53,348 nucleotides of DNA from Campylobacteraceae bacterium (GTDB taxonomy: Bacteria > Campylobacterota > Campylobacteria > Campylobacterales > Sulfurovaceae): NCBI GenBank assembly GCA_027068975.1, contig JALXFN010000084.1, positions 1 through 53,348 on the forward strand, given 5' to 3'. The translations under genes were made by a program, and so were the position numbers. Positions 1,988 to 19,318 of the stretch are shown one piece after another. Position 1 is the first letter of the stretch; the number at the start of each line of letters is the position of its first letter. Below the pieces are notes generated by a model. It was given only the letters and a program-made list of their open reading frames with translations, was not told the origin of the DNA and did not search any database.

Positions 1988-3016
1988 CTATCTTAAAACC
2001 TTAGCATGTTTTTTTTTGTAGCCTCTCTTTATTTTTTGGGCCAAAAGATGTACTGCCATCGCATAATAAACACTATGATTGTAACGGGTAATAACGTAGA
2101 AGTTTCTTGCTCCAAACCATAACTCATCAAAATTATACCTCTCAAGTTTTAAAAGATATACAGGTTCTTTGTATGACCATTTATACATGGTCTTTAAACC
2201 TTTTAATTCTGATTGTGAATATTTATACTGAAAGCCTGTCTTTTTCCCCTTATATCTTGTCCCTTTAAAGGAGACTCTTTCAGCTACAGGTTCCCATTTT
2301 TTCCAACCATTTTTTTCTAAATAATTTGCAACACCAGCTATGGCATCAGGTACTTGTTGCATACTTCGTTTTCCATCTCCATCATAGTCTACGGCATAAT
2401 GTTTATAACTACTTGGCATAAACTGTCCTAAACCAATGGCTCCAGCATAAGACCCCTTTATCTTTAGAGGATTAAAATTATTGTTTTTTGCAAGAATTAA
2501 GAAACTCTCTAGCTCACCTTTAAAATAACTGTTTCGTCTGTTTTTTTCAAAAGATAAAGTCACTAAAACATCAAAAATAGGATAGTTGCCTCTTTTAATG
2601 CCATAACGGCTCTCCACACCAATAATAGCTGTAATATACTCAGGTGGAACCCCATACTTTTCATAAACTTTTTGAAAAATATTTTTATGTTTATACATAA
2701 AATTTACACCCAAATCTATTTTCTTTTCAGAGAATAGATTTTTTTCATATCGTGTCCAACTACCATATTTATTAAATTTTTTTTTCAGACCTTTTACAAC
2801 TTTAGGCTTCTCTCTATATTTAGGATTATATATACCCAACGAACGTTTCTGAAACCTAACATTTGCAAAAAGCCTATTAAGCTTAAAACGGTTAAACCCA
2901 TGCTCTTTAATCATTTTTTCAATAAATACTTTAACCTCTTTTTCTTTAGAATAATCTTTGGAGTAAAGGGTTACACTAAGAAGTATAATCACCAAGATAA
3001 TATTAAAGTATTTCAT
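1988..3016 (-). CDS. mltB: MltB-family lytic murein transglycosylase
   Basis: A 342-residue exported enzyme predicted to cleave the glycan strand of peptidoglycan with formation of 1,6-anhydro-muramic acid. Residues 1-19 form a signal peptide. The SLT_2/MltB signature is clear: IIGVESRYG (131-139) holds the predicted catalytic Glu135, and GAIGLGQFMPSSY (192-204) and DYDGDGKRS (210-218) are typical family motifs. There is no lipobox, unlike E. coli MltB, so it is probably a soluble periplasmic form, and no C-terminal peptidoglycan-binding domain is visible. It starts 10 bases after murF ends on the same strand, which links glycan cleavage and precursor synthesis in one transcription unit. Confidence 0.9.
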   Translation of the reverse strand: MKYFNIILVIILLSVTLYSKDYSKEKEVKVFIEKMIKEHGFNRFKLNRLFANVRFQKRSLGIYNPKYREKPKVVKGLKKKFNKYGSWTRYEKNLFSEKKIDLGVNFMYKHKNIFQKVYEKYGVPPEYITAIIGVESRYGIKRGNYPIFDVLVTLSFEKNRRNSYFKGELESFLILAKNNNFNPLKIKGSYAGAIGLGQFMPSSYKHYAVDYDGDGKRSMQQVPDAIAGVANYLEKNGWKKWEPVAERVSFKGTRYKGKKTGFQYKYSQSELKGLKTMYKWSYKEPVYLLKLERYNFDELWFGARNFYVITRYNHSVYYAMAVHLLAQKIKRGYKKKHAKVLR

Positions 3017-3026
3017 AAATTATAAA

Positions 3027-4451
3027 CTATATAAAACTTGGAGCATCATTCGCAAACAGTATCAAATCACCTGCTTGTGTCTGCTCTATTAACATCTCTT
3101 GCATTTTATCTTTGCTCTCAAGTTTTACCAATTTACTTTCATCTACATATTGTTGAAATATTCTATAGTTTAAATCACCCGTAAGTACTACTACATCAAA
3201 AACCTCATCTGCCCTTTTGGCTACTTGTATGTTAAACTCGTCGTCTACTTCTACCAAGCCTGGGGTAATGAGTACTTTTCTTCCTGTGTAGGTTGAGGCT
3301 AGGTTAAAGCCTTCCATCATACCGTCTATGTTACCGTTGAAACTGTCATCAATAATAACTTTTCCACCTGCATCCATTCGTTGTAGTCTGTGAGGGGTTG
3401 GCTCTAAGGAATTTAACTGTTTTTTAATACTCTCTTCATCTACATCTAACGCTTTAGCTACTTTAATAGCAAGACCTAAGTTCATGGCATTGAACGAACC
3501 TAAAATATTGGCATGGTAAAGTTCATTATCCATTTCAAAATCTAAACCATCAAGAGTGGCTTTTACTCCTGAAATCTCTTTACCAAAAGTATGAACATGA
3601 GCAATAGGACTAAGCTTAGCAGAATCATGAACCCAAGCCTCTTTAAGTCTTTCTGAGGAGAGTATCTCCATTTTGGTATTTCGTATGTTTTCTAAACTTC
3701 CAAAATACTCTATGTGTGCAGGTCCTATTTTACCAACCACAGCCAAGTGAGGATTAACAAACTTAGCTATTTCAGCAATATCCCCTGCTCCTCTTGCTCC
3801 CATCTCTACTACATAAACTTCTGTATCAGTAGGTAAGTCTTCATTAATATCTTTTAATATACCCCCAAAGGTATTAACCGAGCGTGGTGTTGCATAGACA
3901 TTATACTTCGCAGACAATATATGAGCTACATAATTTTTAATACTGGTCTTACCATATGATGCAGTTATTCCTACTACTACCATATTTGGCATAGACTCTA
4001 ACTTCTTTTCTGCTTTCATTTGAAAACCTCTAAAAAGAATCTTTTCTATCATAGAAGATACAAAATAAGCTAAAATAAGAGGAATAATCACGACTAAAAT
4101 CTCAAATTTAATAATATACTTCATCATCACTAGAAAAAGTGTAAAAAATATCAAGGCACCAAAAAAACGTTTTACCCGTCCTGTAAAGACTAAAGGTTTA
4201 TCTTGTTCTTTTCTCCACATATAGAGCATGGCTATATATGCTAAAGAGACTACTATACTAAAATTTGTCTCACGACTTACAGCGAAGTAAAGAAAGAGAG
4301 GAATTAAAAAGTAAACCAAATGCCACCATGTTTTGGTATGATGAAACAAAACCCTATCTAACTTATACGAATACCACTGCATGTTGGTCATAAAATAATA
4401 CCCCAATGCTAATACAAAGAGTACATTACTTAATACATTAACTATTTCCAT
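3027..4451 (-). CDS. murF: MurF, UDP-MurNAc-tripeptide-D-Ala-D-Ala ligase, membrane-extended form
   Basis: The protein (474 residues) adds the D-Ala-D-Ala dipeptide to the peptidoglycan precursor using ATP. The Mur ligase P-loop GITASYGKTS is at 161-170, followed by the central domain segment VYVVEMGARGAGDIAEIA and the C-terminal segment with IIDDSFNGN. The first 140 residues contain several hydrophobic segments, so the ligase is probably membrane-tethered; N-terminally extended MurF proteins are known in Campylobacterota. It lies two bases after the hydrolase gene and ten before mltB, indicating one operon. The assignment to MurF rather than MurE or cyanophycin synthetase rests on the EMGARGAGDI motif and the neighbours. 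Confidence 0.9.
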   Translation of the reverse strand: MEIVNVLSNVLFVLALGYYFMTNMQWYSYKLDRVLFHHTKTWWHLVYFLIPLFLYFAVSRETNFSIVVSLAYIAMLYMWRKEQDKPLVFTGRVKRFFGALIFFTLFLVMMKYIIKFEILVVIIPLILAYFVSSMIEKILFRGFQMKAEKKLESMPNMVVVGITASYGKTSIKNYVAHILSAKYNVYATPRSVNTFGGILKDINEDLPTDTEVYVVEMGARGAGDIAEIAKFVNPHLAVVGKIGPAHIEYFGSLENIRNTKMEILSSERLKEAWVHDSAKLSPIAHVHTFGKEISGVKATLDGLDFEMDNELYHANILGSFNAMNLGLAIKVAKALDVDEESIKKQLNSLEPTPHRLQRMDAGGKVIIDDSFNGNIDGMMEGFNLASTYTGRKVLITPGLVEVDDEFNIQVAKRADEVFDVVVLTGDLNYRIFQQYVDESKLVKLESKDKMQEMLIEQTQAGDLILFANDAPSFI

Positions 4452-4453
4452 TC

Positions 4454-5176
4454 TTATCCTTTACTATCTTCTGTTATTTCATCTGCTATAAACTTTGCAT
4501 GTTTCAAAAAGAAAAAGTGGTCACCCTCTAAAGGATAAAATTTAGAATTTTCTATAAGAGCTACAATCTTCTCACCTGTGTAGAGTGGTGTAGCTGTATC
4601 ATCTATGCCCCAAAAGCACAATGCCCTACTTTTTGACTTAGCAAATTCAGCTTCAAAATCTTCATCGACCACATTTTTAAAGGTCTCGTACATCTCATGA
4701 CTCATGCCTTGAGCATCGGGTGCTACAAAGAGTTCTCTTATTTTTTTCATACCTAAAGGCTTTAAAAATTTAAACGTTGCTATTTTTATTTTAACTGACC
4801 AAGGCTTCTCTGTTACTACACCAGCTGATGAGAGCAGAACCAGAGTGGGAGGGTCAAGTAGGGTTGACACCTTTCCACCAAATGAGTGTCCCATTATAAT
4901 TTTAGGTTCAACAGATAAAGTATCTAAAAATTTTTGAACTATTTGAGCATAATCATTTGTAGTTAAAATCATCTCATTTGTACTGGCACCAAAACCTGGC
5001 ATATCCAAATAGATATGCTTATACTCTTTAAACTCTTTCCCAAATGCTTGTTTCATTATCTCTTTATTACTTCCCCAACCATGAAGAACCAATAGTACAT
5101 CGGTTGCACTTGGGTTTACTATTTCATAAGAGAGTTTAAAAACTTGCTCTTTATAAGTTATCTCTTTTACTGCCAT
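4454..5176 (-). CDS. alpha/beta hydrolase, operon partner of murF
   Basis: A 240-residue cytoplasmic alpha/beta-hydrolase fold protein. The oxyanion motif LHGWGS is at 31-36 and the nucleophile elbow GHSFG at 96-100 places Ser98 as nucleophile. Candidate acid and base are in WGIDDTATP and EGDHFFF near the C-terminus. An alpha/beta hydrolase beside murF is a recurrent arrangement in Campylobacter relatives, but its substrate is not known to me. It is two bases upstream of murF and 17 bases after the flavoprotein gene, so it is likely cotranscribed with both. Confidence 0.85.
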   Translation of the reverse strand: MAVKEITYKEQVFKLSYEIVNPSATDVLLVLHGWGSNKEIMKQAFGKEFKEYKHIYLDMPGFGASTNEMILTTNDYAQIVQKFLDTLSVEPKIIMGHSFGGKVSTLLDPPTLVLLSSAGVVTEKPWSVKIKIATFKFLKPLGMKKIRELFVAPDAQGMSHEMYETFKNVVDEDFEAEFAKSKSRALCFWGIDDTATPLYTGEKIVALIENSKFYPLEGDHFFFLKHAKFIADEITEDSKG

Positions 5177-6535: not shown

Positions 6536-7969
6536 ATGTTAATTCAAAAGAGTCTATTATTATCAGTTGTAGCAGCAGCTCTACTTACAACAGGTTGTTC
6601 TCAAACAGCGTCAACACCTAAAGCAAAAAGAAACACTGCTCCAGTAGCAGCACAAAAAACGAGTGACGGTTCGTTTACATTACCTAATGCAAAATCTGGT
6701 ACATGTTATGGAAAAGTTATTATTCCAGCTCAATACAAAACTGTAACTGAAAAAATTAAGGCAACAGATGCTGATACAAAACTAACTATTATTCCAGCAA
6801 CTTACAAAACTGTAACAGAGAGAGTTTTAGATACTCCAGCAAGTACAAAAATCGTAGCTGTTCCAGCAACCTATAAAACAGAGAGTAAAACAGTAACTGT
6901 TTCACCTGCGTATACAGAGTGGAGAACTGGTCTACACCCAGAAGCAAGAGTAGCATCATCTGCTGTTTTAGCATCTGCAAAAGCTGGAGGAGTTAACTTA
7001 GAAGCTGCAAAAGCTGGTTCTTGTTACTATGAGTTTTATGCTGCTCCACAGTATAAAACAACAACTGAAAAAGTTTTAGCATCAGCTCCTTCTTCAAAAA
7101 TCATTGCAGTACCTGCGGCATTTAAAACAGGAACTAAAAGAATTCTTGTAACTCCTGCATCTACTAAATTGGTTAAAGTTCCAGCTACATACAAAACTGT
7201 AACTGAAAGAGTTATGGTCGCTCCAGCAAAAAAAGTATGGAAAGAGACAAAATGTCAAGATAAAGATTGTAGTGTTGAAGAGATGATGTGTCTAGTAGAT
7301 ATTCCAGCTCAGTACAAAACTGTTACAAAACAAGTTGTTGTTACTCCAGAGACAACAAAAACTGTAACTATTCCTGCTGTTTATAAAACTGTACAGGTAA
7401 ATGAACTTGCAGCTCCTGCATCTACAAAAACTGTAAACATTCCTGCAACATACAAAACATTAGAAAAAACGCAAAAAATTTCTGATGCAAAATATGTATG
7501 GTCAGATTCTATGATGGAAAAACCAGGTATGTCAAGAACATCTTCAGTAATATGTAAGGTATCTGTTCCTGCTGTAACTAAAACAATTACTAAACAAGTG
7601 GTAGCTACTCCAGCAACTACAAAAACCGTAACTATACCTGCTACATATAAAACTGTAAAAGTAACTAAACTTGTTACTCCTGAAAGAACTAAGAAAACTG
7701 TTATTCCTGCTACATACAAAACGGTTACAAAACAAGTTAAAGTTTCTGACCAGTCAGTTAAATGGATGCCTGTTCTTTGTAAATCAAGTATGACAGTAGA
7801 GACTATCTCTAGAATCCAAAAAGCATTAACAGCTGCAGGATTTAAAACTCCAGTAACTGGTATGTTGGATGAAGCTACAAAAGCATCAGTAAAAGCTTAC
7901 CAAACTAAAAAAGGTCTTACAGTATCTGGACTTTCTATTGATACACTTAAAGATTTAGGTGTTCTTTAA
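6536..7969 (+). CDS. PATYKT-repeat lipoprotein with C-terminal peptidoglycan-binding domain
   Basis: A 477-residue lipoprotein. The signal peptide ends in the lipobox LLTTGC at residues 16-21. The middle, about 55-410, is made of roughly twelve copies of a unit of about 21 residues with consensus PATYKTVTxxVxxxPASTK. The units group in threes into four blocks, each opening with a cysteine (CYGKV, CYYEF, CLVDI, CKVSV) and closing near a tryptophan. The last 60 residues resemble a PG_binding_1 domain (ISRIQKALTAAGF, then ASVKAYQTKKGL). The likely role is an outer-membrane or surface protein that holds peptidoglycan; this is inference. An AAAGGA ribosome site precedes the ATG. A hairpin follows the stop, so it may be monocistronic. 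Confidence 0.85.
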   Translation: MLIQKSLLLSVVAAALLTTGCSQTASTPKAKRNTAPVAAQKTSDGSFTLPNAKSGTCYGKVIIPAQYKTVTEKIKATDADTKLTIIPATYKTVTERVLDTPASTKIVAVPATYKTESKTVTVSPAYTEWRTGLHPEARVASSAVLASAKAGGVNLEAAKAGSCYYEFYAAPQYKTTTEKVLASAPSSKIIAVPAAFKTGTKRILVTPASTKLVKVPATYKTVTERVMVAPAKKVWKETKCQDKDCSVEEMMCLVDIPAQYKTVTKQVVVTPETTKTVTIPAVYKTVQVNELAAPASTKTVNIPATYKTLEKTQKISDAKYVWSDSMMEKPGMSRTSSVICKVSVPAVTKTITKQVVATPATTKTVTIPATYKTVKVTKLVTPERTKKTVIPATYKTVTKQVKVSDQSVKWMPVLCKSSMTVETISRIQKALTAAGFKTPVTGMLDEATKASVKAYQTKKGLTVSGLSIDTLKDLGVL

Positions 7970-8270: not shown

Positions 8271-9758
8271 ATGTATAAAAAAACATCTAAACCCTTAGAA
8301 AATCCTTCCTTTTATCAATTGCTTGGTATTGGCATAAACAAAGTTTTAAACTTTTTTAAGCAGCATATTACCTATCAAGCTGTATTAATTCTCTCATTAA
8401 TATCTTTTAGTACCTCTTACTATGGGTTTATCTCTTTAGTATCAGATGGGATGTTATTGACTAAAATACTCTTTTTTGCTGTAGTGGGAGTCATTCAGTT
8501 AGCATTAGTCTACTCTATCTCTCAACTCTATTTACGAGAGTTCTTCTCTCGCCATATATTAAGAGCCTCTTTACTTTTGGTTACCTATCTGTTATCACTT
8601 TTTATTAGTGTACTTTTTAGTTTTAACTTTTATTACAAAATCTTTTCAGCCTCTGAATTTTCTCAAAGAAATGTAACACTTCAATTAGAGAGAATTAAAA
8701 ATTCATTAGAAGATGCACAAAGTAGTTTTGATTCAGTCTATATTTCACTAAAAAAATTGAGTGACTACTCAATGAAAGAGTCTATTGAAGAGCGTACCTA
8801 TGGGGGTACTTGTGATGAGACTAAAATTCCAACACCTGGTCCAAGAAGTGCATTAAGAGAAGCAGAGAGCAAACTTTTTCAAAGTCATTTAAGCTCTTTT
8901 GATGAGTTAAGGAAAAAAGTTCAAAGTGAAATTACTGTTATAAAAAAAATGTTAGTAAACTTTAACCCTAAAAAAGATGATGTAGAAAAGTTAGAGGAGC
9001 AAGTCAACAGTCGTATTTCTAAAATCAATAGAGTTTTTAGGGGAGGTGAGATTACACTACTTCCTAAAGTTTTAGCCAATCATAATGGTTCAGCACGGAT
9101 GAAAATGGAATCTTTAGGAAGAATTATTAGCTGTCCAGACAGTCAAATTAGTCTAAAAATCAACACCATTAATGAAAATTTAAATGCACTAAAAGTCTTA
9201 GAAAAAGTAAGTTTTTTTGATGCAAACAATCAGCAACAACTTATTGAACGAACCATTAATGTACTCTTAGCCATTATCCCTTTTACCAATACACATGTTG
9301 TTGCTTTAGATAAGGTAACAAGTCCAACAGATGTTACACAGAGTGATATTAAAGCCATTGGACTAGGATTCTTGGTCGACTTTTTTATCTTCTTTTTTAC
9401 AATTTTAGCCAAAGAGCCTTATAGAGCTAGATTCTTTACCGAAGAAAACATAGCACACTATCTTCGTTATGATATACGACGAATACTTAAACCTTTTGTT
9501 TTTGAGAGCCATTTCTCTTACCATCTTATTATTCCAAACCAGAGAAAAAATCATAAAATAGATGAAGTTTTAACCCGTTTTAAAATAGATAAGATGATTA
9601 CTTTAGTGGGGAACAATGTCTATTATGATGAGCTACTTTTTTTACATCAAAGTAAACTAAGAAATTTTAAAGATTTCACTTTTACTGTTTATAAACTTGA
9701 TAAACAAAAGTACAATACACTCTTAGCCTATATAGACGAGTTACGTAATAATGATTGA
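8271..9758 (+). CDS. coiled-coil membrane protein of unknown function
   Basis: I do not recognise this 495-residue protein. Three hydrophobic segments lie at about 35-58, 62-85 and 97-120. A long charged, helical, probably coiled-coil stretch spans about 130-335, then a fourth membrane segment near 360-378 (GFLVDFFIFFFTILA) and a C-terminal soluble domain of about 115 residues. The stop overlaps the start of the PBP-like gene by 8 bases, which implies translational coupling and a shared complex. The ATG lacks a strong Shine-Dalgarno sequence. A structural partner of the PBP-like protein is a reasonable guess only. Confidence 0.75.
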   Translation: MYKKTSKPLENPSFYQLLGIGINKVLNFFKQHITYQAVLILSLISFSTSYYGFISLVSDGMLLTKILFFAVVGVIQLALVYSISQLYLREFFSRHILRASLLLVTYLLSLFISVLFSFNFYYKIFSASEFSQRNVTLQLERIKNSLEDAQSSFDSVYISLKKLSDYSMKESIEERTYGGTCDETKIPTPGPRSALREAESKLFQSHLSSFDELRKKVQSEITVIKKMLVNFNPKKDDVEKLEEQVNSRISKINRVFRGGEITLLPKVLANHNGSARMKMESLGRIISCPDSQISLKINTINENLNALKVLEKVSFFDANNQQQLIERTINVLLAIIPFTNTHVVALDKVTSPTDVTQSDIKAIGLGFLVDFFIFFFTILAKEPYRARFFTEENIAHYLRYDIRRILKPFVFESHFSYHLIIPNQRKNHKIDEVLTRFKIDKMITLVGNNVYYDELLFLHQSKLRNFKDFTFTVYKLDKQKYNTLLAYIDELRNND

Positions 9759-12027
9759 GATGTTTTGGAGTATTAAACTCAAATTAACAGCAATGTTAAA
9801 TGAGGTTAAGTGGAGTATTTTTATTAGAAAGCATGATGTAAAGAGTCTAAAAAAATCTTTCTCTATGGTTTTAGAAATTATTACTATTCACGCTATTCTT
9901 ATCGCCTCAGATATAGTAAAGTTTTTTAATTTCATGAAAGAGATGATAACTCAAAAACTTATTTTTATACCTTTAAGCATTATGTTTTTACTTTTTGGAG
10001 TCTATCTCTCTTTTATCAATGGGCAACCAGACAAAGAGCTTTTTAATGAGAAAATTTTTCCTAAACTTTATTATGATACAGGTATTGAGATTCGTGATTC
10101 ACAAAACAGATTTGCAGGAACAGTAGCAAGTCCTCAAAGTACCGTTACTAATCCTTCTTTATTTATAGAAAAAACACCCTCGCTCTTTTGGTCACTACTT
10201 AAGGAAAAGTATGACCCAAAACTAGATTTTGATAGCAATGCAACTACTTTTTTTGAGGCACTTTCTGAAAACATAACCTACTATAACGGAATAGATATTT
10301 CGTCTCCATTTAGTGAGAGCAGACGCTTGGTACATCATCTTATTACAGAACAGAGTTTAGCGTTAAAACCCAAATTAACATTGACTCAACAACTTATTAA
10401 TATATTTCTAAGAAAACACCCTTTTGAGAGATCTAGTAATAATATAGCACGGTTAAAATTAGCAAAAACATTTTTTCATTCACTTAAAGCCAATGATGGA
10501 GCAAATTTTAAATCATGGTTGCTTTTGGAAAAAAAATTTTTTATTGCTGATGGTAAAGGCTATGGCTTTAAAGATACTGCAGAGATTTTCTTTGGAAAAT
10601 CACTAGATGAACTCTCAAATGCTCAAGAGGCTGTTTTGGTTGCAATGTATGCGAAACCTTTTCATCTGAACCAATCGTTACAAGAGCAAAAAAAAGCATG
10701 GGAAAATATTAAGAGTGATGCCATAGAGATTGTTGATAACTCTGATATTATCAAACATCATTATAATATTGTCTCTAACATAAAAAAGATGCACTTTCCA
10801 AAAATTCCCTATTTTTCAGATTCTCTTATGGAGGTTGTAGGAGAGATAACCTCAAAAAATAGAGAACAGTTTAGCTCTTTACCCACTCGAAGTAATGCTC
10901 TATTACAAAGCTCTAAAGCAGTGGTACGTCAAGAGTTAGATAAACTATTTAAAGTCTATAGTATCTCGCCTAAAAGTCAACTGGTAACAAAAGTATCTAT
11001 TAACTTTGAACTCAATAAAATTTTTTATTTTAATCACTATTTAAAAGAGCAAGTAGAGACATTAAACTTGTCAAATATGTGGGTCTCGGTAGTCAATGAA
11101 GAGGGAAAGATGATTCGTCTTTATCAAAAAAACACCATTTATCAACGCCCACCACAAATTGGAAATCTTGGTAAAATTTTTTCAGCACTTCTTTTTGCTG
11201 ATAGAGGAGATAAGTACTATAGCCAATATTGTAATAAAAAGGCAACATCAGAGATACCCATGGAAGAGGGATTAAAAAAGTGTAGTAGCAACGCATGGAT
11301 TGATGCAAGAAGAGTTTTTTCCTCAAACAAGATGCTTCCACTCTATGATGGTTTTATAAAATATAAAGAACGAGATAGAAGAGGAGAAAATACCTACTAT
11401 AAACCAATTCATATGAATAAAATTGAAGCACTCTATCAAAATTTAGATTTGGTCTCTTTGGAAAACAACGAACCTAGAGTTGATTTAGGAGCAGGAAAAT
11501 TAGAGATGAATCCATTAGATGTTCAAACTGCTTTACATAAAATTACTCAACTGCTTTATCATCCAAATCATACCTTCTATGGGCTAAAGCTTGTCAAATC
11601 ATTAGAGTATCATGATATTAACAAAAGTGTCATTGACCCAACATCCAAATTTTTCTCTTTTGATTCTCCTGAACAGGTTACACCTACCTTTAAGAAGTTT
11701 TTTACAAAAGAGAAACGTATAACCTTACAGACCATCTTTAAAACACCTATCTATAAAAGTTATGGCTCACTACAGTGGTTACGAAACTATATTAATATTA
11801 AATTTGTTTTTGCACAAGAGAGCCATAAGAACGGTACACATTGGCTTGTAGGTGTTTTTAAAAAAGCAAACAAATACTATAGTTTTACAATTTTTATAGA
11901 GGATAAAACAGTTAATACAAAACAAATTAAAGAGAAAATAAAAAGTATTTTAGAGGCAACAATTAAGTCTATCAACAATGAAAGAGAGATGAAATTTAAC
12001 TATATGAAGCAGGTTTTTAGAGATTAG
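9751..12027 (+). CDS. degenerate class A penicillin-binding-protein-like protein
   Basis: The 758-residue protein has the order of a bifunctional PBP: a membrane helix at 70-90, a GT51-like domain at about 105-310 and a transpeptidase-like domain at about 430-720. GT51 features kept are LTLTQQLINIFLRK (209-222) and FGKSLDELSNAQEAVLVAMY (281-300). The first GT51 motif, normally EDxxFxxHxGxD, is replaced by KEKYDPKLDFD (151-161), losing the usual Glu-Asp. In the transpeptidase part the SxxK position reads GNLGK (471-475) with Asn for Ser, SSN (512-514) matches SxN, and KNGT (693-696) replaces KTGT. DLGAGKLEMNPLD (578-590) matches another PBP motif. It is probably a pseudoenzyme or regulator of wall synthesis. 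Confidence 0.75.
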   Translation: MIEMFWSIKLKLTAMLNEVKWSIFIRKHDVKSLKKSFSMVLEIITIHAILIASDIVKFFNFMKEMITQKLIFIPLSIMFLLFGVYLSFINGQPDKELFNEKIFPKLYYDTGIEIRDSQNRFAGTVASPQSTVTNPSLFIEKTPSLFWSLLKEKYDPKLDFDSNATTFFEALSENITYYNGIDISSPFSESRRLVHHLITEQSLALKPKLTLTQQLINIFLRKHPFERSSNNIARLKLAKTFFHSLKANDGANFKSWLLLEKKFFIADGKGYGFKDTAEIFFGKSLDELSNAQEAVLVAMYAKPFHLNQSLQEQKKAWENIKSDAIEIVDNSDIIKHHYNIVSNIKKMHFPKIPYFSDSLMEVVGEITSKNREQFSSLPTRSNALLQSSKAVVRQELDKLFKVYSISPKSQLVTKVSINFELNKIFYFNHYLKEQVETLNLSNMWVSVVNEEGKMIRLYQKNTIYQRPPQIGNLGKIFSALLFADRGDKYYSQYCNKKATSEIPMEEGLKKCSSNAWIDARRVFSSNKMLPLYDGFIKYKERDRRGENTYYKPIHMNKIEALYQNLDLVSLENNEPRVDLGAGKLEMNPLDVQTALHKITQLLYHPNHTFYGLKLVKSLEYHDINKSVIDPTSKFFSFDSPEQVTPTFKKFFTKEKRITLQTIFKTPIYKSYGSLQWLRNYINIKFVFAQESHKNGTHWLVGVFKKANKYYSFTIFIEDKTVNTKQIKEKIKSILEATIKSINNEREMKFNYMKQVFRD

Positions 12028-12032
12028 GATTG

Positions 12033-13157
12033 TTAAACTTTTAACTCTAAAACCTCTCCAAACGGAACATCACAACGTTCACTCATCACCCATAAAACAT
12101 CTATTAATGGTTCATACTTTGGAAAACTTCCTTTTCCATCGGTAAAATAAATCAAAAATTTAAAATCTTCATTCATATTCTTAATATACTCAAAAACAGG
12201 ACGAAAATCTGTTCCCCCTCCTCCTTTAAGCATGGGTTCAAGTGGCTCTTGTGGTGTAAGTCGTTGTATGTTCTGAATAGAAGCATCACACTCGATAAGC
12301 TCGATAACATAATGTGTAAAGACCTGCATTATTTCATAAAGCTCTGCTAAAAAAGTTTTTAAAAGCTCATCATCTATCGAAGCAGAAGTATCAATAGCCA
12401 CGACTATCTTTAACTCTTCTCCATAAATAGAGGGCAGAGCTATGCCTCTATATAAATGTTTTTTAGATGGAGGAAACATCCTATAGTCACTCTTAGCATG
12501 AGCATTTACATAACGATAGAGTTCATCTCTCCAAGATATTTGAGGCTCTTTTTTGCTCTCTATAAAACGCTCTATTCCCTTAGGTAAGTCACCATGTTGT
12601 TCTAGTTTTATATTAAGCTGTTCAAGTAGTAGTTCATACTCCTCTTGTGCTAAAAGTTCTTCAGGCAACTCTTGCTCTTCCATCTCTTCACTCTGCTTTT
12701 CTTGCTCATCTAAAGTTTCATCATTATCTTGTAAATCAAGCTCTCCTAGTAAAATCGTATAAATCTGTTCAGCATAAAGCATCTCAAAACGTGAAGCATA
12801 GTTTGCCATAGGTGGAAGCATAAACCCATTATCAACCAATAAGTCATTAATGGCATAATCAGAAGCCAAATTCCACACCGATGAAACTTTATCTTTTCCT
12901 CTATTACTATGAAAGAGAGCCTGATGCATGGCAGCATTGGCTAGAATCGTACTTACTTCATTAATATCAAGCACTTCTAAATACTCATCATTATACTCCA
13001 ACACATCACCCAAGGGGCGAAAAGAGGCTATATTGTTATTGACTCTTAACTCTATAGAAGTAACTAAACTTCCAAAGTATGGACTTTCAAGCATCAGTTT
13101 TGTTTTAGCTTGGGTTATCTTTTCATTACTTATTAATTTTACATCTTGAGGTATCAT
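12033..13157 (-). CDS. VWA-like protein of the DUF2201 type, MoxR partner
   Basis: A 374-residue cytoplasmic protein. The N-terminal half has the DUF2201 feature of a metallopeptidase-like domain with WNLASDYAINDLL; the usual HExxH is not intact (AAMHQALFHSNR). An acidic Glu/Gln-rich linker lies near 150-180. The C-terminal half is VWA-like, with VVAIDTSASID as a MIDAS-type metal site and a second acidic region at YFTDGKGSFP. Such proteins usually work with MoxR AAA+ ATPases as chaperones or metal-insertion factors. Here moxR is in the same operon, separated only by thiD. It ends five bases from the PBP-like gene, which converges on it. Confidence 0.85.
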   Translation of the reverse strand: MIPQDVKLISNEKITQAKTKLMLESPYFGSLVTSIELRVNNNIASFRPLGDVLEYNDEYLEVLDINEVSTILANAAMHQALFHSNRGKDKVSSVWNLASDYAINDLLVDNGFMLPPMANYASRFEMLYAEQIYTILLGELDLQDNDETLDEQEKQSEEMEEQELPEELLAQEEYELLLEQLNIKLEQHGDLPKGIERFIESKKEPQISWRDELYRYVNAHAKSDYRMFPPSKKHLYRGIALPSIYGEELKIVVAIDTSASIDDELLKTFLAELYEIMQVFTHYVIELIECDASIQNIQRLTPQEPLEPMLKGGGGTDFRPVFEYIKNMNEDFKFLIYFTDGKGSFPKYEPLIDVLWVMSERCDVPFGEVLELKV

Positions 13158-13160
13158 AAC

Positions 13161-13970
13161 TTAAACCTTCAAGGCATAAAAATGGTGAACTGCTCCATGC
13201 CCTCTACCTAAATAGTAATCTTTCCCCTCTTCTATGGCTCTATTTAAATAAGCACATGCTCTCTTTGTAGACTCCTCTAGGCTAAATCCTAAACTCACAT
13301 AAGTAGCAAGAGCAGAAGAGAGGCTACAACCTGTTCCATGAGTATTTATACTCTTTATGGCTCTGTTTTTTATACTTATACACTCTAAACTATCTTTTAA
13401 ACAGAGGGTGTCTATCATCTCATCACTCTCTTCTAGATGTCCACCTTTTAAAAGCACTGATGTATTATATTTTTTAACTAATTTTCTAGCTGAATCTACT
13501 AAGTTCTCTTTTGAAATCTTCTCATCTAGTAAAATCTCTGCTTCGGGTATGTTTGGGGTCACTAAGTAAACCTTAGGAAGAAAAGCCTTTAACCGTTCTA
13601 TAGCTTCATCTGCAAGTAAATTTTTACCAGAGGTTGCCACCATAACAGGGTCTAAAATAATTTTACTCACCCCATACTCTTCAAGTTTTCTCTCTACCAC
13701 CTCTATAACCTCTGCTGAGTGTAGCATTCCTATTTTTACTGCTCCAAACTCTATATCAGACAATACAGCTTCTAGTTGTGTTTCTATATGTGCTATTGGC
13801 ATAGGGTGTATATCTGTTACACCTTGGGTATTTTGTGCAGTTGAGGCTGTTATAACGGTAGATGCATACCCACCATTGGCAGAGATGCTTTTAATGTCGG
13901 CTTGAATTCCTGCACCTCCACCTGAGTCACTCCCTGCGATGCTTAGAACTGTGTTGTATTTTTTCTTCAT
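13161..13970 (-). CDS. thiD: ThiD, HMP/HMP-phosphate kinase
   Basis: This 269-residue enzyme phosphorylates hydroxymethylpyrimidine and its monophosphate in thiamine synthesis. Family marks are SIAGSDSGGGAGIQADIKS at the N-terminus (substrate pocket), DPVMVATSGKNL in the middle, and the C-terminal anion-hole and base motif NTHGTGCSLSSALATY. The length is normal. It sits three bases from both neighbours, between moxR and the VWA gene, so it is translated from the same transcript although no metabolic link is evident. A thiE-like gene lies at 26332. Confidence 0.94.
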   Translation of the reverse strand: MKKKYNTVLSIAGSDSGGGAGIQADIKSISANGGYASTVITASTAQNTQGVTDIHPMPIAHIETQLEAVLSDIEFGAVKIGMLHSAEVIEVVERKLEEYGVSKIILDPVMVATSGKNLLADEAIERLKAFLPKVYLVTPNIPEAEILLDEKISKENLVDSARKLVKKYNTSVLLKGGHLEESDEMIDTLCLKDSLECISIKNRAIKSINTHGTGCSLSSALATYVSLGFSLEESTKRACAYLNRAIEEGKDYYLGRGHGAVHHFYALKV

Positions 13971-13973
13971 ACC

Positions 13974-14975
13974 TTACACCAATAAGTAAGCAAACTCTTC
14001 AACCCAATCTTCCCATACAGAAGAAGCCTCTACATTTATCTTGTTCTGTTGCATATCTTTTACCAACATTACCGAAAACTCTTTTGGAAGTCTTAGTGAA
14101 AACTTTAAAGCATTGTCTACTTTCTCTTTACTAGAGTTCTGTTTTATATTACTAATAATTCCTGCTATTAAGGCAAAAAGAACTTGACTATCATGCTCTA
14201 CTTCTAGCTCTTCCCCATTAAGTAGTTTCTCAATATCAGGCAGACGGCTCATAACCTTTCTAAAGCTCATAAAAGCAGTTGCACTCTCACTCCCTACTGC
14301 ACCAGAGATAATCTCCATAAGTAGAGTAGACTCTATATTTGAAGCTAAAACTCTATGAACATACTCCCATGACCTTGGTGTAGGAAAAGATTTTTGATTT
14401 TTAGAGGGGTCAAAATCAAAAAGCTTACTCTCATCGTAGTGTAAAAATGCAATAATAGAGCTATCTATTCCATTACTATATGCCCACCCTTTCCAATCCT
14501 CAAAACTCACTTCCATATTTAAATGAACGAAACGGTTTGCCAGAGGTGGTGGCATTCTATAGACCACACCTCTATCACTCTCATGGTTTCCAGCAGCTAC
14601 TATACTCCAACCCTTTGGTAACTCATAATCCCCTACTTTTCTATCAAGCACCAGCTGATAAGCCGATGCTTGAACTGAGGGAGGTGCTGTATTTATCTCG
14701 TCTAAAAACAAAATCCCTTTGGAGTCAGGATTTTTAGGTAAAAAGTTTGGACTTGCCCAGACAGCTTCATGATTATCTTTATCAAAAAAGGGAATCCCTT
14801 TAAGGTCAGTGGGGTCAAGTAGTGACAGACGTAAGTCTACAAACTCTAAACCTTTATCTGTAGCTATCTGTTTTATAATAGAAGATTTTCCTATTCCTGG
14901 GCTTCCCCATACAAAAACTGGAATTTGACTCTCTATTAGTTTCTCTAGGCTTTTACTTAGTTCTTTTGCTTTCAT
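13974..14975 (-). CDS. MoxR-family AAA+ ATPase
   Basis: A 333-residue AAA+ protein. Walker A is WGSPGIGKSS near residues 23-32; Walker B is GILFLDEINTAPP; sensor 1 is VAAGNHESD; an arginine-finger region follows in MPPPLANRFVHLN. Members of the MoxR group act with VWA-domain proteins in protein maturation or metal insertion. Its start overlaps the thioredoxin-like gene by four bases and its stop is three bases from thiD. The VWA partner lies one gene downstream. Confidence 0.9.
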   Translation of the reverse strand: MKAKELSKSLEKLIESQIPVFVWGSPGIGKSSIIKQIATDKGLEFVDLRLSLLDPTDLKGIPFFDKDNHEAVWASPNFLPKNPDSKGILFLDEINTAPPSVQASAYQLVLDRKVGDYELPKGWSIVAAGNHESDRGVVYRMPPPLANRFVHLNMEVSFEDWKGWAYSNGIDSSIIAFLHYDESKLFDFDPSKNQKSFPTPRSWEYVHRVLASNIESTLLMEIISGAVGSESATAFMSFRKVMSRLPDIEKLLNGEELEVEHDSQVLFALIAGIISNIKQNSSKEKVDNALKFSLRLPKEFSVMLVKDMQQNKINVEASSVWEDWVEEFAYLLV

Positions 14976-15319
14976 TCATACTCTCCAAATCCATATTTTT
15001 TCATAATAATCTCCACAACAGGCTTTTTATATGCCCCTTCATGTCGGAAAACTTCATTCCCCTCAGCATCAAAAAAGAGTTGAACAGGCATAAGTTTTAA
15101 CTTATATTTATCGCGTAATATTAAACGCTCTTTTTGTCCATCAACTGAATAGATTTGATACTCAGGATGCTCCTCTAAAATTTCACGAAAGACTTTCGAC
15201 ATTTCCAAACAAGAGTAACAGTGCTTCATACCAAAAGCAATAATCGTAGGTTTGCCATTACCTATTTTATCTTTGACATCTGCATATTTTTGAACTTCTA
15301 AAATTTTAATATCTATCAT
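14972..15319 (-). CDS. thioredoxin-like protein with CYSC motif
   Basis: About 115 residues with a thioredoxin fold: the active-site segment FGMKHCYSCLEMSKVF carries a CxxC (CYSC) and the cis-proline region LKLMPVQLFFD follows. No signal peptide is seen, so it is probably cytoplasmic. I prefer the ATG at 15319 over the adjacent in-frame GTG at 15322. It overlaps the stop of the upstream repeat-protein gene by about 14 bases and the moxR start by four, which ties it firmly into the operon. A reducing role for the MoxR/VWA client is possible but inferred. Confidence 0.8.
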   Translation of the reverse strand: MIDIKILEVQKYADVKDKIGNGKPTIIAFGMKHCYSCLEMSKVFREILEEHPEYQIYSVDGQKERLILRDKYKLKLMPVQLFFDAEGNEVFRHEGAYKKPVVEIIMKKYGFGEYE

Positions 15320-16703
15320 CACTTCTCAATCCTACATGTGCAGAGTTTACACTCTTCAAATACGTTTTATTTTTTGTCATCAGCATAATCAGTTCAGAAT
15401 CCAATGCAAACTGCTCCAAATAGACCAACTCTACCGAACTGTTCAATGCCAAAGCACGATTTAGCTCATGTTCATTCAACGCACACAACTCTTTTAAAAT
15501 TTCAGCATTGGTATTTGGATTGGCAGCTAAATTTTGTATAACTTCTCTATCTCCACTCTTGTAAAAGTGTGTCAACAGTTCAGTAGAGGTATTTGGATTA
15601 GCACTAAGAGGAAGCATAAACTCTTCTCCATACATCTCATATAGTTTAGCCAGTAACTCACTATTTACTTCTGGATTAGAAGCCAATTTATAGTCTAACA
15701 GTTTGTTAAGACCTATTAAAGAGTCCACTATCTCTTCTATAAGAAGGTTTTCCCCCATAAAAGCTAAAAGTACATCAGAGAGATTTGACTCTAAAATGTA
15801 CTCTAGTCGTTTAGCTGTTAATGTTTGAAAGGTTAACAGTGACTCTACTATTTCATTATCACTTTTGAGTAGTTCTCTAAAAAGTTTATCATCCAAAGCA
15901 TTGTTTTGCGTGAGCATAAGCTTGGTAACGTCATTGGCTTGTTGAAAAATAAGCTCTTGGGCATCTACACGAATAGCCGAATTACAGGCTAAAAAACTTT
16001 TAATTCTATCGTCATTAAAACTTAAAAGGTAACGTATGCTTTCATGAGAAATATTAGGGTTAAGTGCCACTATTTCACGTAAGTTTTTAGGACGTAAATC
16101 CTCCTTACGGCTCTGTTTTATCTCATGGTTTGGCATGGTAAGCATGGCATCCAATATATCAGCTGTTTTGGCATCTCTAGCAATATTGGACAACGTAATA
16201 GGAGAGTAGACCATAGCAGGGTCACGAAAACCATCGGGTCTATAAAAACGCTCTACAAAAGTTATGGTTGTATCACGATTCTCATCGTTATCATACACTC
16301 CATCATTCCCCCAATCGTACATTTTAAAAAGTTTTAAGTAGACCTCATCAGAAAAGGCTCCATTTTTGAGCAGACGTTTCAAACGCTCTTGGTCATTAGA
16401 GAGTTTAAGTGACATCATCAAGGTGTTGGGTTTAATATGCGTCGTATAATACTCTTCAAACTGAGCCAAACGCAACTCTGGAACTTTGGCATCATATAAG
16501 GCATAAGAGGTCTCCTCCTCTAAAGGGGTCATCATGGTACTCAACACAACTAGAGCAACCTCTTGCCCCACATATTTATCTGCATAGTTCATACCTTGGG
16601 ATTCCAAAAAGTTACTAAGTTCTTCTGGCGTAAAATTAGTGACACGCCCTAAAAAAAGAACCGTGCCATTTTTATTTTGCTTTATAATCTCTTCTATATT
16701 CAT
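15306..16703 (-). CDS. LRV/HEAT-like alpha-solenoid protein, first gene of the moxR operon
   Basis: A 465-residue protein. Residues from about 195 to the end consist of helical repeats of about 24 residues containing NPNxxxExL-type turns (ALNPNISHESIRYLLS, ANPNTSTELLTHFY, ANPNTNAEILKEL), as in leucine-rich-variant or HEAT solenoids. The N-terminal 100 residues (VLFLGRVTNFTPEELSNFLE, then VALVVLST) faintly recall a BRCT fold; this is a weak guess. No cysteine cluster for an iron-sulfur site is seen. It opens the operon with thioredoxin-like, MoxR, ThiD and VWA genes and may serve as a client-binding scaffold. Confidence 0.75.
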   Translation of the reverse strand: MNIEEIIKQNKNGTVLFLGRVTNFTPEELSNFLESQGMNYADKYVGQEVALVVLSTMMTPLEEETSYALYDAKVPELRLAQFEEYYTTHIKPNTLMMSLKLSNDQERLKRLLKNGAFSDEVYLKLFKMYDWGNDGVYDNDENRDTTITFVERFYRPDGFRDPAMVYSPITLSNIARDAKTADILDAMLTMPNHEIKQSRKEDLRPKNLREIVALNPNISHESIRYLLSFNDDRIKSFLACNSAIRVDAQELIFQQANDVTKLMLTQNNALDDKLFRELLKSDNEIVESLLTFQTLTAKRLEYILESNLSDVLLAFMGENLLIEEIVDSLIGLNKLLDYKLASNPEVNSELLAKLYEMYGEEFMLPLSANPNTSTELLTHFYKSGDREVIQNLAANPNTNAEILKELCALNEHELNRALALNSSVELVYLEQFALDSELIMLMTKNKTYLKSVNSAHVGLRSDDRY

Positions 16704-16781: not shown

Positions 16782-16850
16782 TTATCTCTCTATATGTTTT
16801 TTCATATCAAAATACTTTTCACAACTCAGTGATATTTTTGATTCTTTCAT
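16782..16850 (-). CDS. possible 22-residue ORF coupled to the M50 protease gene
   Basis: The ATG at 16850 overlaps the TGA of the protease gene in an ATGA arrangement, and AGGAAAA lies just upstream inside the protease gene. The frame encodes MKESKISLSCEKYFDMKKHI plus two residues before TAA. The arrangement suits translational coupling, but the frame is short enough to arise by chance and no family is recognised. Confidence 0.3.
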   Translation of the reverse strand: MKESKISLSCEKYFDMKKHIER

Positions 16851-19318
16851 TTTTTTATTTTTCCTAACGTATATATTGCTTGTTCTTGTACTTTCTTATT
16901 TTTATCATTAAGATAAAAGTTAACACTCTCTTCCAACCTTGGGTCATAGGTTCTAACCATACTTTGCAAGAGTATAATTTTTAATAAATCATCTTTTGTA
17001 TCTTTGTACTTTTTTGCTCTGTTTTGAAGATAGTGTATAAGCTCTTCATATCTTTCTTTATCTACAATGGAGTAATATTCTCTTTGTAGTTTCGCAAATT
17101 TTTTCTCATCTATATTTAATGTTCCATTCTGCTCTATGTAAGCACCTACTCTATATGCCTCTGCTGTAACCTTTAGAAAATGGTTCCAGTTGTAATATCG
17201 CTTAATATTACTACTGTCATAACCATAAGAATAAAAAGCATAAAGTCCACTCTCATTACAATTATAGGCTAGACCATACGACTCTTCATCTCCAATAGCT
17301 AAAACATAGTTTGTCTCTCTACTTTCACCATAAGACTCTTTTTCGCGTTGAACCAATAGATGTGTATCAATCATATCTTTAAGAGAAAAAAGTTTTTGGT
17401 ATGGTATAAGCTCTTCTATTCCATTGTGCCACTGTAAAACTTGCAAATGCTCTTTCGATACAGTACAAGGTAGGCTACTTGTATCTACGGTCTTATGAAC
17501 TCCATCAATAATTTTACGCTTTACTTTTGAAGTAGAAAAATAGTTATCAAGCATTTTCATCGACTCTTCTAAAGTGTAGTCTACGTTATCAGCTTGGGTT
17601 AAGCCCCAATAGCTCTGTACCGTTTCATTAAAAGTTCGTAACTCTTTTTTTCCTTCATGGGACAAATTACTATATGCTGACTGATGCATTATATTTAGCC
17701 CAAAATAGCCAACAATCAATGTTGGTGAAAGCAGAAGCAAATAAAATGCCATACCAAAGATTATGAGAATTCTGCTTGGTTTTTTCATTTCCACAATACG
17801 TAATGCCTGTTTTGCTACCTGAGCTTTGGTGGATAAACTCTCTTTCATAAATTTTTCATCTTGAATCAAAAGTGATGCTACACTCTCTTTTGTTATCTCT
17901 TCATGTGTATAGACAGTAAAGAGTTTTTTTAACACTTCAGAAAGAAGATAACTATTTTTTAAACCAAGTGCTATTAAAACCACAAATATAAGTAAAAAGG
18001 GGTCTCGCATCCAGACCATTACCCCCGTCAATACGGCAAGACCAATGATATAAAAATAAAACTGTCCTTTTGGGTAACGTGACAGAAGCAATGTTTGAAT
18101 AATTCTTCCACCATCAAGAGGATGAATGGGAAGCAGATTAGCAAAGTTAATAACTATGCTCATAATAGCATAGCTGTTCATGAATGAGTTGTTAAAGAGC
18201 TCTACTCCATTTTGTGTCTCCATTACAAGAATAGCCACACCAATAATAATACCAGGCAAAGGTCCCATCAAGGAGACAATAAACTCTTCATAGGCACTGC
18301 CTCTATTTTTATTGCCTATGGTCACAGCACCAAAAGGAAGAAAGAATATATTGGTATCGGTATAGCCAAAATAACGCATGGCAAGAAAATGCCCCAACTC
18401 ATGCACCAAAAGGACAATGACCAATACAAAGACATCTGCAATGGAAAATCCAAAAAGTGAAAAAAGAGCAATAAAGGTAAGAAGAGAGAAAACAAACCAC
18501 TTTATCTTACTGCTACCCTTACCTCTTTGTTTATCGACTTGTTCCATTTGAGCCATAAGCCCTTGTGTTTGACTCTCCGTACTGTTTTCTGTAGTAGTTA
18601 GCGTTGCATTTGTTTTTAAAATTTTAGAAAATTTTCTATACCCTTTAAGTGTCTTCTTTGCATACTTCCACAATGCAAATGAAAACCTGTATCTGTAACC
18701 CTCCTCTGTTTTTGTAGCAACACCATACGCTACATTAGCATCTGCATATAGATGTTCAGTGTAATTTAGGTAGGCTAACCAACCCTCTTTGTCAAAAGGT
18801 TCTTTAATAATTTTTTCATTATCTACTCTTCTATCGTTTAGGTGTGCATTAAAAATATCTTCCCATAAAGGTAGATAGTGGTCAAAAAAATAGATCTCCT
18901 TTGGAACAGTGGGAAGGAAATGCTCCATACCATTTTCAGTTGTACATATCTTTTTACTCTCATAAATAGTATCATATGCCAATTTTACAGGTTGAAGAGA
19001 ACCTCTATAAGGTGTGGTTTCTAAAAAGGCATGAATCCCCTCTGTTGGGTTATAGTAGTAGAGTTTATATATCGTTAAATCTGACCCCACTATCATACTT
19101 TTATGCTTTACTGCATACTTAAACACAAAGTCATTTGCTAAGAGATGCTTTTCATAAGGAAGTAGTATTTTTTGTACCTCTTCATCAATGTCACTCTTAG
19201 CAGATAAATGATAATCAGGAAAACGAAATTTATAGTATAAAAAAATCAAAAACTGCAATAACGTCATACCTTGCCACAATATTAACCCTACTGCTACCCA
19301 TAACCATATATTTTCCAT
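16847..19318 (-). CDS. large M50-family (site-2-like) membrane metalloprotease with HEAT-like tail
   Basis: An 823-residue integral membrane protein. An N-terminal helix (about 5-28) is followed by a soluble region of about 240 residues. Zinc motif HELGH (306-310) sits in a membrane helix and NLLPIHPLDGGR (394-405) supplies the third ligand, as in M50 proteases. More membrane helices follow to about 560, then a soluble region, and the last 80 residues look like HEAT repeats (YNQ-type helices ending QEQAIYTLGKIKK). It is much larger than RseP or SpoIVFB. Substrate and pathway are unknown; there is no sigma or anti-sigma gene next to it. The gene stands alone apart from the small coupled ORF. 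Confidence 0.85.
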   Translation of the reverse strand: MENIWLWVAVGLILWQGMTLLQFLIFLYYKFRFPDYHLSAKSDIDEEVQKILLPYEKHLLANDFVFKYAVKHKSMIVGSDLTIYKLYYYNPTEGIHAFLETTPYRGSLQPVKLAYDTIYESKKICTTENGMEHFLPTVPKEIYFFDHYLPLWEDIFNAHLNDRRVDNEKIIKEPFDKEGWLAYLNYTEHLYADANVAYGVATKTEEGYRYRFSFALWKYAKKTLKGYRKFSKILKTNATLTTTENSTESQTQGLMAQMEQVDKQRGKGSSKIKWFVFSLLTFIALFSLFGFSIADVFVLVIVLLVHELGHFLAMRYFGYTDTNIFFLPFGAVTIGNKNRGSAYEEFIVSLMGPLPGIIIGVAILVMETQNGVELFNNSFMNSYAIMSIVINFANLLPIHPLDGGRIIQTLLLSRYPKGQFYFYIIGLAVLTGVMVWMRDPFLLIFVVLIALGLKNSYLLSEVLKKLFTVYTHEEITKESVASLLIQDEKFMKESLSTKAQVAKQALRIVEMKKPSRILIIFGMAFYLLLLSPTLIVGYFGLNIMHQSAYSNLSHEGKKELRTFNETVQSYWGLTQADNVDYTLEESMKMLDNYFSTSKVKRKIIDGVHKTVDTSSLPCTVSKEHLQVLQWHNGIEELIPYQKLFSLKDMIDTHLLVQREKESYGESRETNYVLAIGDEESYGLAYNCNESGLYAFYSYGYDSSNIKRYYNWNHFLKVTAEAYRVGAYIEQNGTLNIDEKKFAKLQREYYSIVDKERYEELIHYLQNRAKKYKDTKDDLLKIILLQSMVRTYDPRLEESVNFYLNDKNKKVQEQAIYTLGKIKK

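Follow-up and report, generated by a model that had tools for sequence, protein, structure and literature searches.

Class A penicillin-binding proteins (PBPs) such as Escherichia coli PBP1A and PBP1B and Staphylococcus aureus PBP2 carry a membrane anchor followed by a GT51 glycosyltransferase fold and a transpeptidase fold. A penicillin-binding fold is also present in the beta-lactam sensors BlaR1 and MecR1, in which the acylating serine is kept. In E. coli PBP1b, E233 acts as the general base of the GT51 domain, and S510 and K513 lie in the transpeptidase site (PMC8119973). Bacillus subtilis PBP2B has a structural role in cell division for which its catalysis is dispensable (PMC5656894).

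The window analyzed here (contig JALXFN010000084.1, 53,348 nucleotides) belongs to a 2.78-Mb assembly whose closest named relatives are metagenome-assembled genomes (MAGs) labeled Campylobacteraceae or Sulfurovum. It codes for a class A PBP homologue (9751-12027, + strand; 758 amino acids [aa]) in which both active sites are lost and which we refer to as the type-a PBP. Like class A PBPs, this protein has an anchor followed by GT51-like and transpeptidase folds in the same order, and it holds the GT51 motif remnants TLTQQL, YG, and FGK. Unlike them, it lacks the catalytic GT51 glutamate and the SxxK/SxN/KTG triad, and it has an N-terminal extension of ∼65 aa and a conserved membrane partner gene. 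As in B. subtilis PBP2B, its retained role may not need catalysis; in contrast to PBP2B, a class B protein whose active site is intact, it shows a complete loss that arose naturally. In the open-access literature, to which the search was confined, no paper on the type-a PBP and its partner was found.

The PBP homologue and its two former active sites

The reading frame was uninterrupted over all 758 codons, as an earlier note on this DNA had stated. The same note's assignment to the class A PBPs was borne out by a weak match to Pfam Transgly (aa 268 to 312; E=1.6e-5, 24.8 bits, just below the 27-bit cut-off), which reached 28.7 bits for the protein together with its neighbors in a whole-genome search, and by the predicted structure. 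The AlphaFold2 model, built from a 19-row alignment (pLDDT 84.7, pTM 0.79), retrieved S. aureus PBP2 and E. coli PBP1b as top Foldseek matches (E 7e-14 to 4e-13), with PBP1a and class B PBPs ranking lower. Bifunctional PBPs matched the model across most of its length, and the low full-length TM-scores (0.3 to 0.5; rmsd 10 to 17) probably reflect a rotation of the two domains relative to each other. Three relatives (L042, L038, and L039) scored above the Pfam cut-offs for both Transgly and Transpeptidase. As triad-intact relatives found no PDB match by phmmer, profile and fold evidence was used instead. HHalign aligned type a with the housekeeping PBP1A over only 41 columns, so that the connection to canonical PBPs is made through the paralogous type-b PBPs, to which type a aligned over its full length (E=4.5e-60), and through Pfam and fold. 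By fold and descent, with a GT51 domain preceding a transpeptidase domain, the protein is thus assigned to class A. A membrane anchor was predicted at about aa 68 to 92 (9952-10026, +) from the sequence and from a predicted helix at residues 72 to 89.

In the GT51 domain, the register of former motif I (aa 143 to 160; 10177-10230, +) was given by an ungapped multiple alignment, in which the spacing P143..W147..L158.F160 is common to the family. The R-E-E or R-E-D of type b corresponds to K-Y154-D155 in the window protein, which places a tyrosine at the position of the general base (E233 of E. coli PBP1b). Position 154 was tyrosine in 10 of 11 type-a sequences and isoleucine in the remaining one, and the adjoining Asp155 was conserved. 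The earlier note had described the Glu-Asp motif as replaced, and the loss of its glutamate was confirmed. A motif II remnant, TLTQQLIN, was retained at aa 210 to 217 (10378-10401, +). The glutamate of GT51 motif IV is likewise important. From this region to YG..FGK (aa 247 to 283; 10489-10599, +), YG and FGK were kept, and the motif IV glutamate was absent in all aligned members, although the stretch aligns poorly in the most distant one (G632).

The register of the transpeptidase site was set by type-a orthologues (50 to 97% identity) and type-b paralogues (about 25% identity), the latter retaining S-x-x-K, S-K-N, and K-S-G-T. By alignment and HHalign to type b, the former SxxK motif reads N472-L-G-K475 (11164-11175, +), the former SxN motif N526-K527-M528 (11326-11334, +), and the former KTG motif Q689-E690-S691 (11815-11823, +), so that none of SxxK, SxN, and KTG(T/S) is present. 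The previously proposed Ser-to-Asn replacement at SxxK was found in all 11 type-a sequences. Two further readings had been register errors: the "SSN" taken for a retained SxN is displaced from the aligned position, and the supposed KNG variant of KTG belongs to an H-K-N-G just downstream of the actual site. The earlier statement that SxN and other motifs persist therefore fails for SxN and KTG. With SxN, KTG, and the motif IV glutamate gone as well, the loss is more complete than had been reported. Asn472 and Lys475 were invariant in 11 of 11 aligned type-a sequences despite free drift at position 526 (N/D/T/S/E/P), indicating that constraint persists at the position of the former nucleophile.

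The membrane partner and the distribution of the pair

Directly upstream, a gene at 8271-9758 (+) codes for a 495-aa membrane coiled-coil protein of no known family, described here from its predicted model and from co-occurrence. The model (pLDDT 79, pTM 0.54) contains hydrophobic predicted helices at aa 33 to 57, 62 to 85, 96 to 125, and 357 to 379, long coiled-coil helices between them, and a C-terminal mixed alpha/beta domain; Cys181 and Cys288 in the coiled-coil region are conserved. The two genes share an 8-base overlap (ATGATTGA; 9751-9758, +) that places the PBP start codon within the end of the partner gene, making translational coupling likely. The same overlap occurred in almost every Sulfurovum pair, whether type a or b, and was replaced by a short gap in two.

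Searches against Pfam, NCBIfam, and the PDB gave chance-level matches only, leaving the partner unnamed in the libraries searched. A similarity to the type III chaperone CesA (E=0.004, below that model's cut-off) was rejected as coiled-coil similarity. Neither protein matched the anti-phage defense models of PADLOC 2.0.0. In a protein-level search of phages and plasmids no match was found, so that nothing there pointed to mobile cargo. A scan for promoters and terminators yielded counts at the level of shuffled sequence.

Of 34 genomes of the genus, 15 contained the partner. These 15 are also the genomes that carry the PBP, to which only G010 has to be added, where the PBP lies at a contig end. 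Partner identities ranged from 71 to 95%, compared with 50 to 97% for the PBP, and the partner was the better conserved of the two among more distant orthologues. Within the genus only the pair stays together, whereas the other neighbors in the window change, except in two near-identical relatives. Upstream of the pair, the region 1988-5176 (-) codes for an SLT_2/MltB-type lytic transglycosylase, a murF-like ligase (3027-4451), and an EstV lipase. The murF-like gene lies near the pair in several loci (L022, L023, L028, and L030), so that it recurs at L028 and L030 in addition to the two close relatives. The gene directly upstream of the pair (6536-7969, +), whose 477-aa product ends in a PG_binding_1 domain (Pfam, 33 bits), is not kept beside the pair in most relatives. 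On the other side, the region 12033-14975 (-) codes for a VWA-type DUF2201 protein and a MoxR-like AAA ATPase, which flank thiD. Beyond it are genes for a 465-aa protein containing repeats of the leucine-rich repeat variant (LRV) type (15306-16703, -) and for an 823-aa protein (16847-19318, -) in which a central peptidase M50 domain is preceded by a long N-terminal region of unrecognized type.

In two genomes (G025 and G026), a type-a pair coexisted with a type-b pair. Type-b pairs were followed by a third membrane protein gene of about 244 to 251 aa (L017, 3605-4336; L021, 759-1511) without an NCBIfam match. A phylum-wide search of 397 genomes recovered the window genome only, as few members of the genus had been drawn. 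Outside the genus, the pair was present in Thiotrichales (Leucothrix arctica and Thiotrichaceae MAGs) and, with reversed gene order, in one distant gammaproteobacterium (G632). A type-b pair was also present on L035, a contig assigned to Candidatus Gracilibacteria; the pair falls within the Sulfurovum type-b group, and the contig is probably mis-binned.

Among these relatives, the transpeptidase triad was kept in L039, L040 (the same contig as L155 and counted once), G746, and G632. Leucothrix and its relatives have A/V/Q at the serine position, A/T/S at the lysine position, and R-A-S or R-E-S at SxN; G816 and G813 keep the serine and have methionine in place of the lysine; a fourth group has G or N at the serine position and KSA instead of KSG. 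A maximum-likelihood tree implied at least three changes of triad state. Support is low (59/45) on one of the branches concerned, which leaves two independent losses firm and a third likely. The branch leading to type a is long in this tree, at 1.56 changes per site. In the most economical history, the ancestor was a partner-associated PBP whose polymerase was lost early and whose transpeptidase was lost repeatedly but kept in some lines, with selection on the protein beside its partner persisting throughout. As type b and some Thiotrichales pairs are triad-intact, the module may originally have had a catalytic job. In many Thiotrichales the partner homologue had no adjoining PBP, which makes the partner family the wider one; conversely, one PBP contig (G832, L157) had no partner within 0.8 kb upstream, and the link is therefore not absolute outside Sulfurovum. 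Some Thiotrichales partners (L077 and L094) have a long charged C-terminal tail with E/K/Q-rich repeats, unlike the Sulfurovum partners.

Selection on the type-a PBP and its possible roles

Alignment of the orthologues, which the earlier note had proposed as a check, revealed that both active sites are absent throughout and that the same replacements are conserved in all of them, which at identities down to 50% is far beyond chance. Pairwise dN/dS against the window gene (Nei-Gojobori, with dS near saturation in distant pairs) was 0.08 to 0.18, compared with 0.07 to 0.11 for the housekeeping PBP1A in the same genome pairs and 0.05 to 0.08 for the partner gene. No frame breaks were found in full-length orthologues. 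These dN/dS values, together with the shared replacements and unbroken frames, argue that the gene is not decaying and agree with the earlier view of a selected pseudoenzyme: catalytic residues gone, their loss conserved in orthologues, and purifying selection maintained. That note had overlooked the upstream partner gene, the paralogues with an intact triad, and the independent inactivation in Thiotrichales. Nearly all searched genomes of the genus also had a separate PBP1A, complete or in part (G013 being an exception), and the catalytic transpeptidase motifs were kept in every one of the 29 full-length copies examined. Since every motif is present in the PBP1A of the window genome itself, catalysis does not have to be supplied by the type-a PBP.

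At the level of sequence comparison and predicted models, the PBP fold, the double catalytic loss, purifying selection, the conserved pairing, the intact paralogues, and repeated loss of the triad are established. Both reactions having been lost while selection persists, the role that was kept points to ligand binding, synthase regulation, or assembly. We consider it probable that the type-a PBP is a noncatalytic, PBP-derived subunit for peptidoglycan binding or regulation that acts with the membrane partner. It would be a membrane-anchored pseudoenzyme of class A descent, located in the periplasm, which would neither make nor cross-link peptidoglycan. With the coiled-coil protein encoded upstream, it would most probably form an envelope complex, in which its PBP-fold domains would bind lipid II, nascent glycan, a stem peptide, or another cell wall synthase, in a regulatory or scaffolding capacity.

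A narrower form of this explanation, possible but on the unlikely side, is that of a division or elongation scaffold that recruits working PBP1A or SEDS enzymes. B. subtilis PBP2B offers a precedent by analogy (PMC5656894), the same genome codes for a PBP1A with intact motifs, and a murF-like ligase is close to the pair in several genomes. However, the ancestry is class A and not class B, and a pair present in fewer than half of the genomes of the genus cannot be core division machinery. We regard as doubtful an envelope sensor in which the type-a PBP would read muropeptides, lipid II, or beta-lactams and the partner would relay the signal to a cytoplasmic C-terminal domain. The predicted topology of the partner, which combines several membrane helices with a long coiled coil outside the cytoplasm and an alpha/beta domain at the C terminus, is consistent with such a relay, as is the conserved pairing, and a Foldseek similarity of the partner to the TorS sensor domain (E 0.16 to 0.4) gives a weak hint; yet the partner has no recognized output domain, and no conserved regulator gene adjoins the pair. 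BlaR1 and MecR1 provide a possible analogy for sensing with a PBP fold, except that the type-a PBP has an asparagine where they keep the serine. An enzyme with changed chemistry, for example using Glu152 or Asp155 as the GT51 base or hydrolyzing a new substrate in the transpeptidase cleft, appears quite improbable: Glu152, Asp155, Asn472, Lys475, and Ser691 are invariant in 11 of 11 type-a sequences, but none of the three transpeptidase motifs is left, the second GT51 glutamate is gone as well, and we know of no PBP with asparagine as the nucleophile. A decaying gene or an assembly artefact, which the long branch to type a might suggest, is refuted by intact orthologues in many separate assemblies and by their low dN/dS.

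Beyond the noncatalytic subunit favored above, the pairs could, more speculatively, represent an unnamed two-gene envelope module in which a class A PBP was repeatedly turned into a noncatalytic subunit of the conserved coiled-coil partner, the latter being the constant component and PBP catalysis dispensable. Leucothrix is known for its filaments. As the hosts include this filamentous genus and vent relatives of Sulfurovum, the module may shape septa, filaments, or attachment; a connection with filament formation is conjecture based on how the hosts live. Noncatalytic roles of PBPs become directly testable with a class A PBP that is naturally dead at both sites, has transpeptidase-intact paralogues within the same genomes, and is paralleled by independent losses in another phylum. 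In sulfur oxidizers of vents and mats, the uncharacterized membrane partner may control cell wall synthesis.
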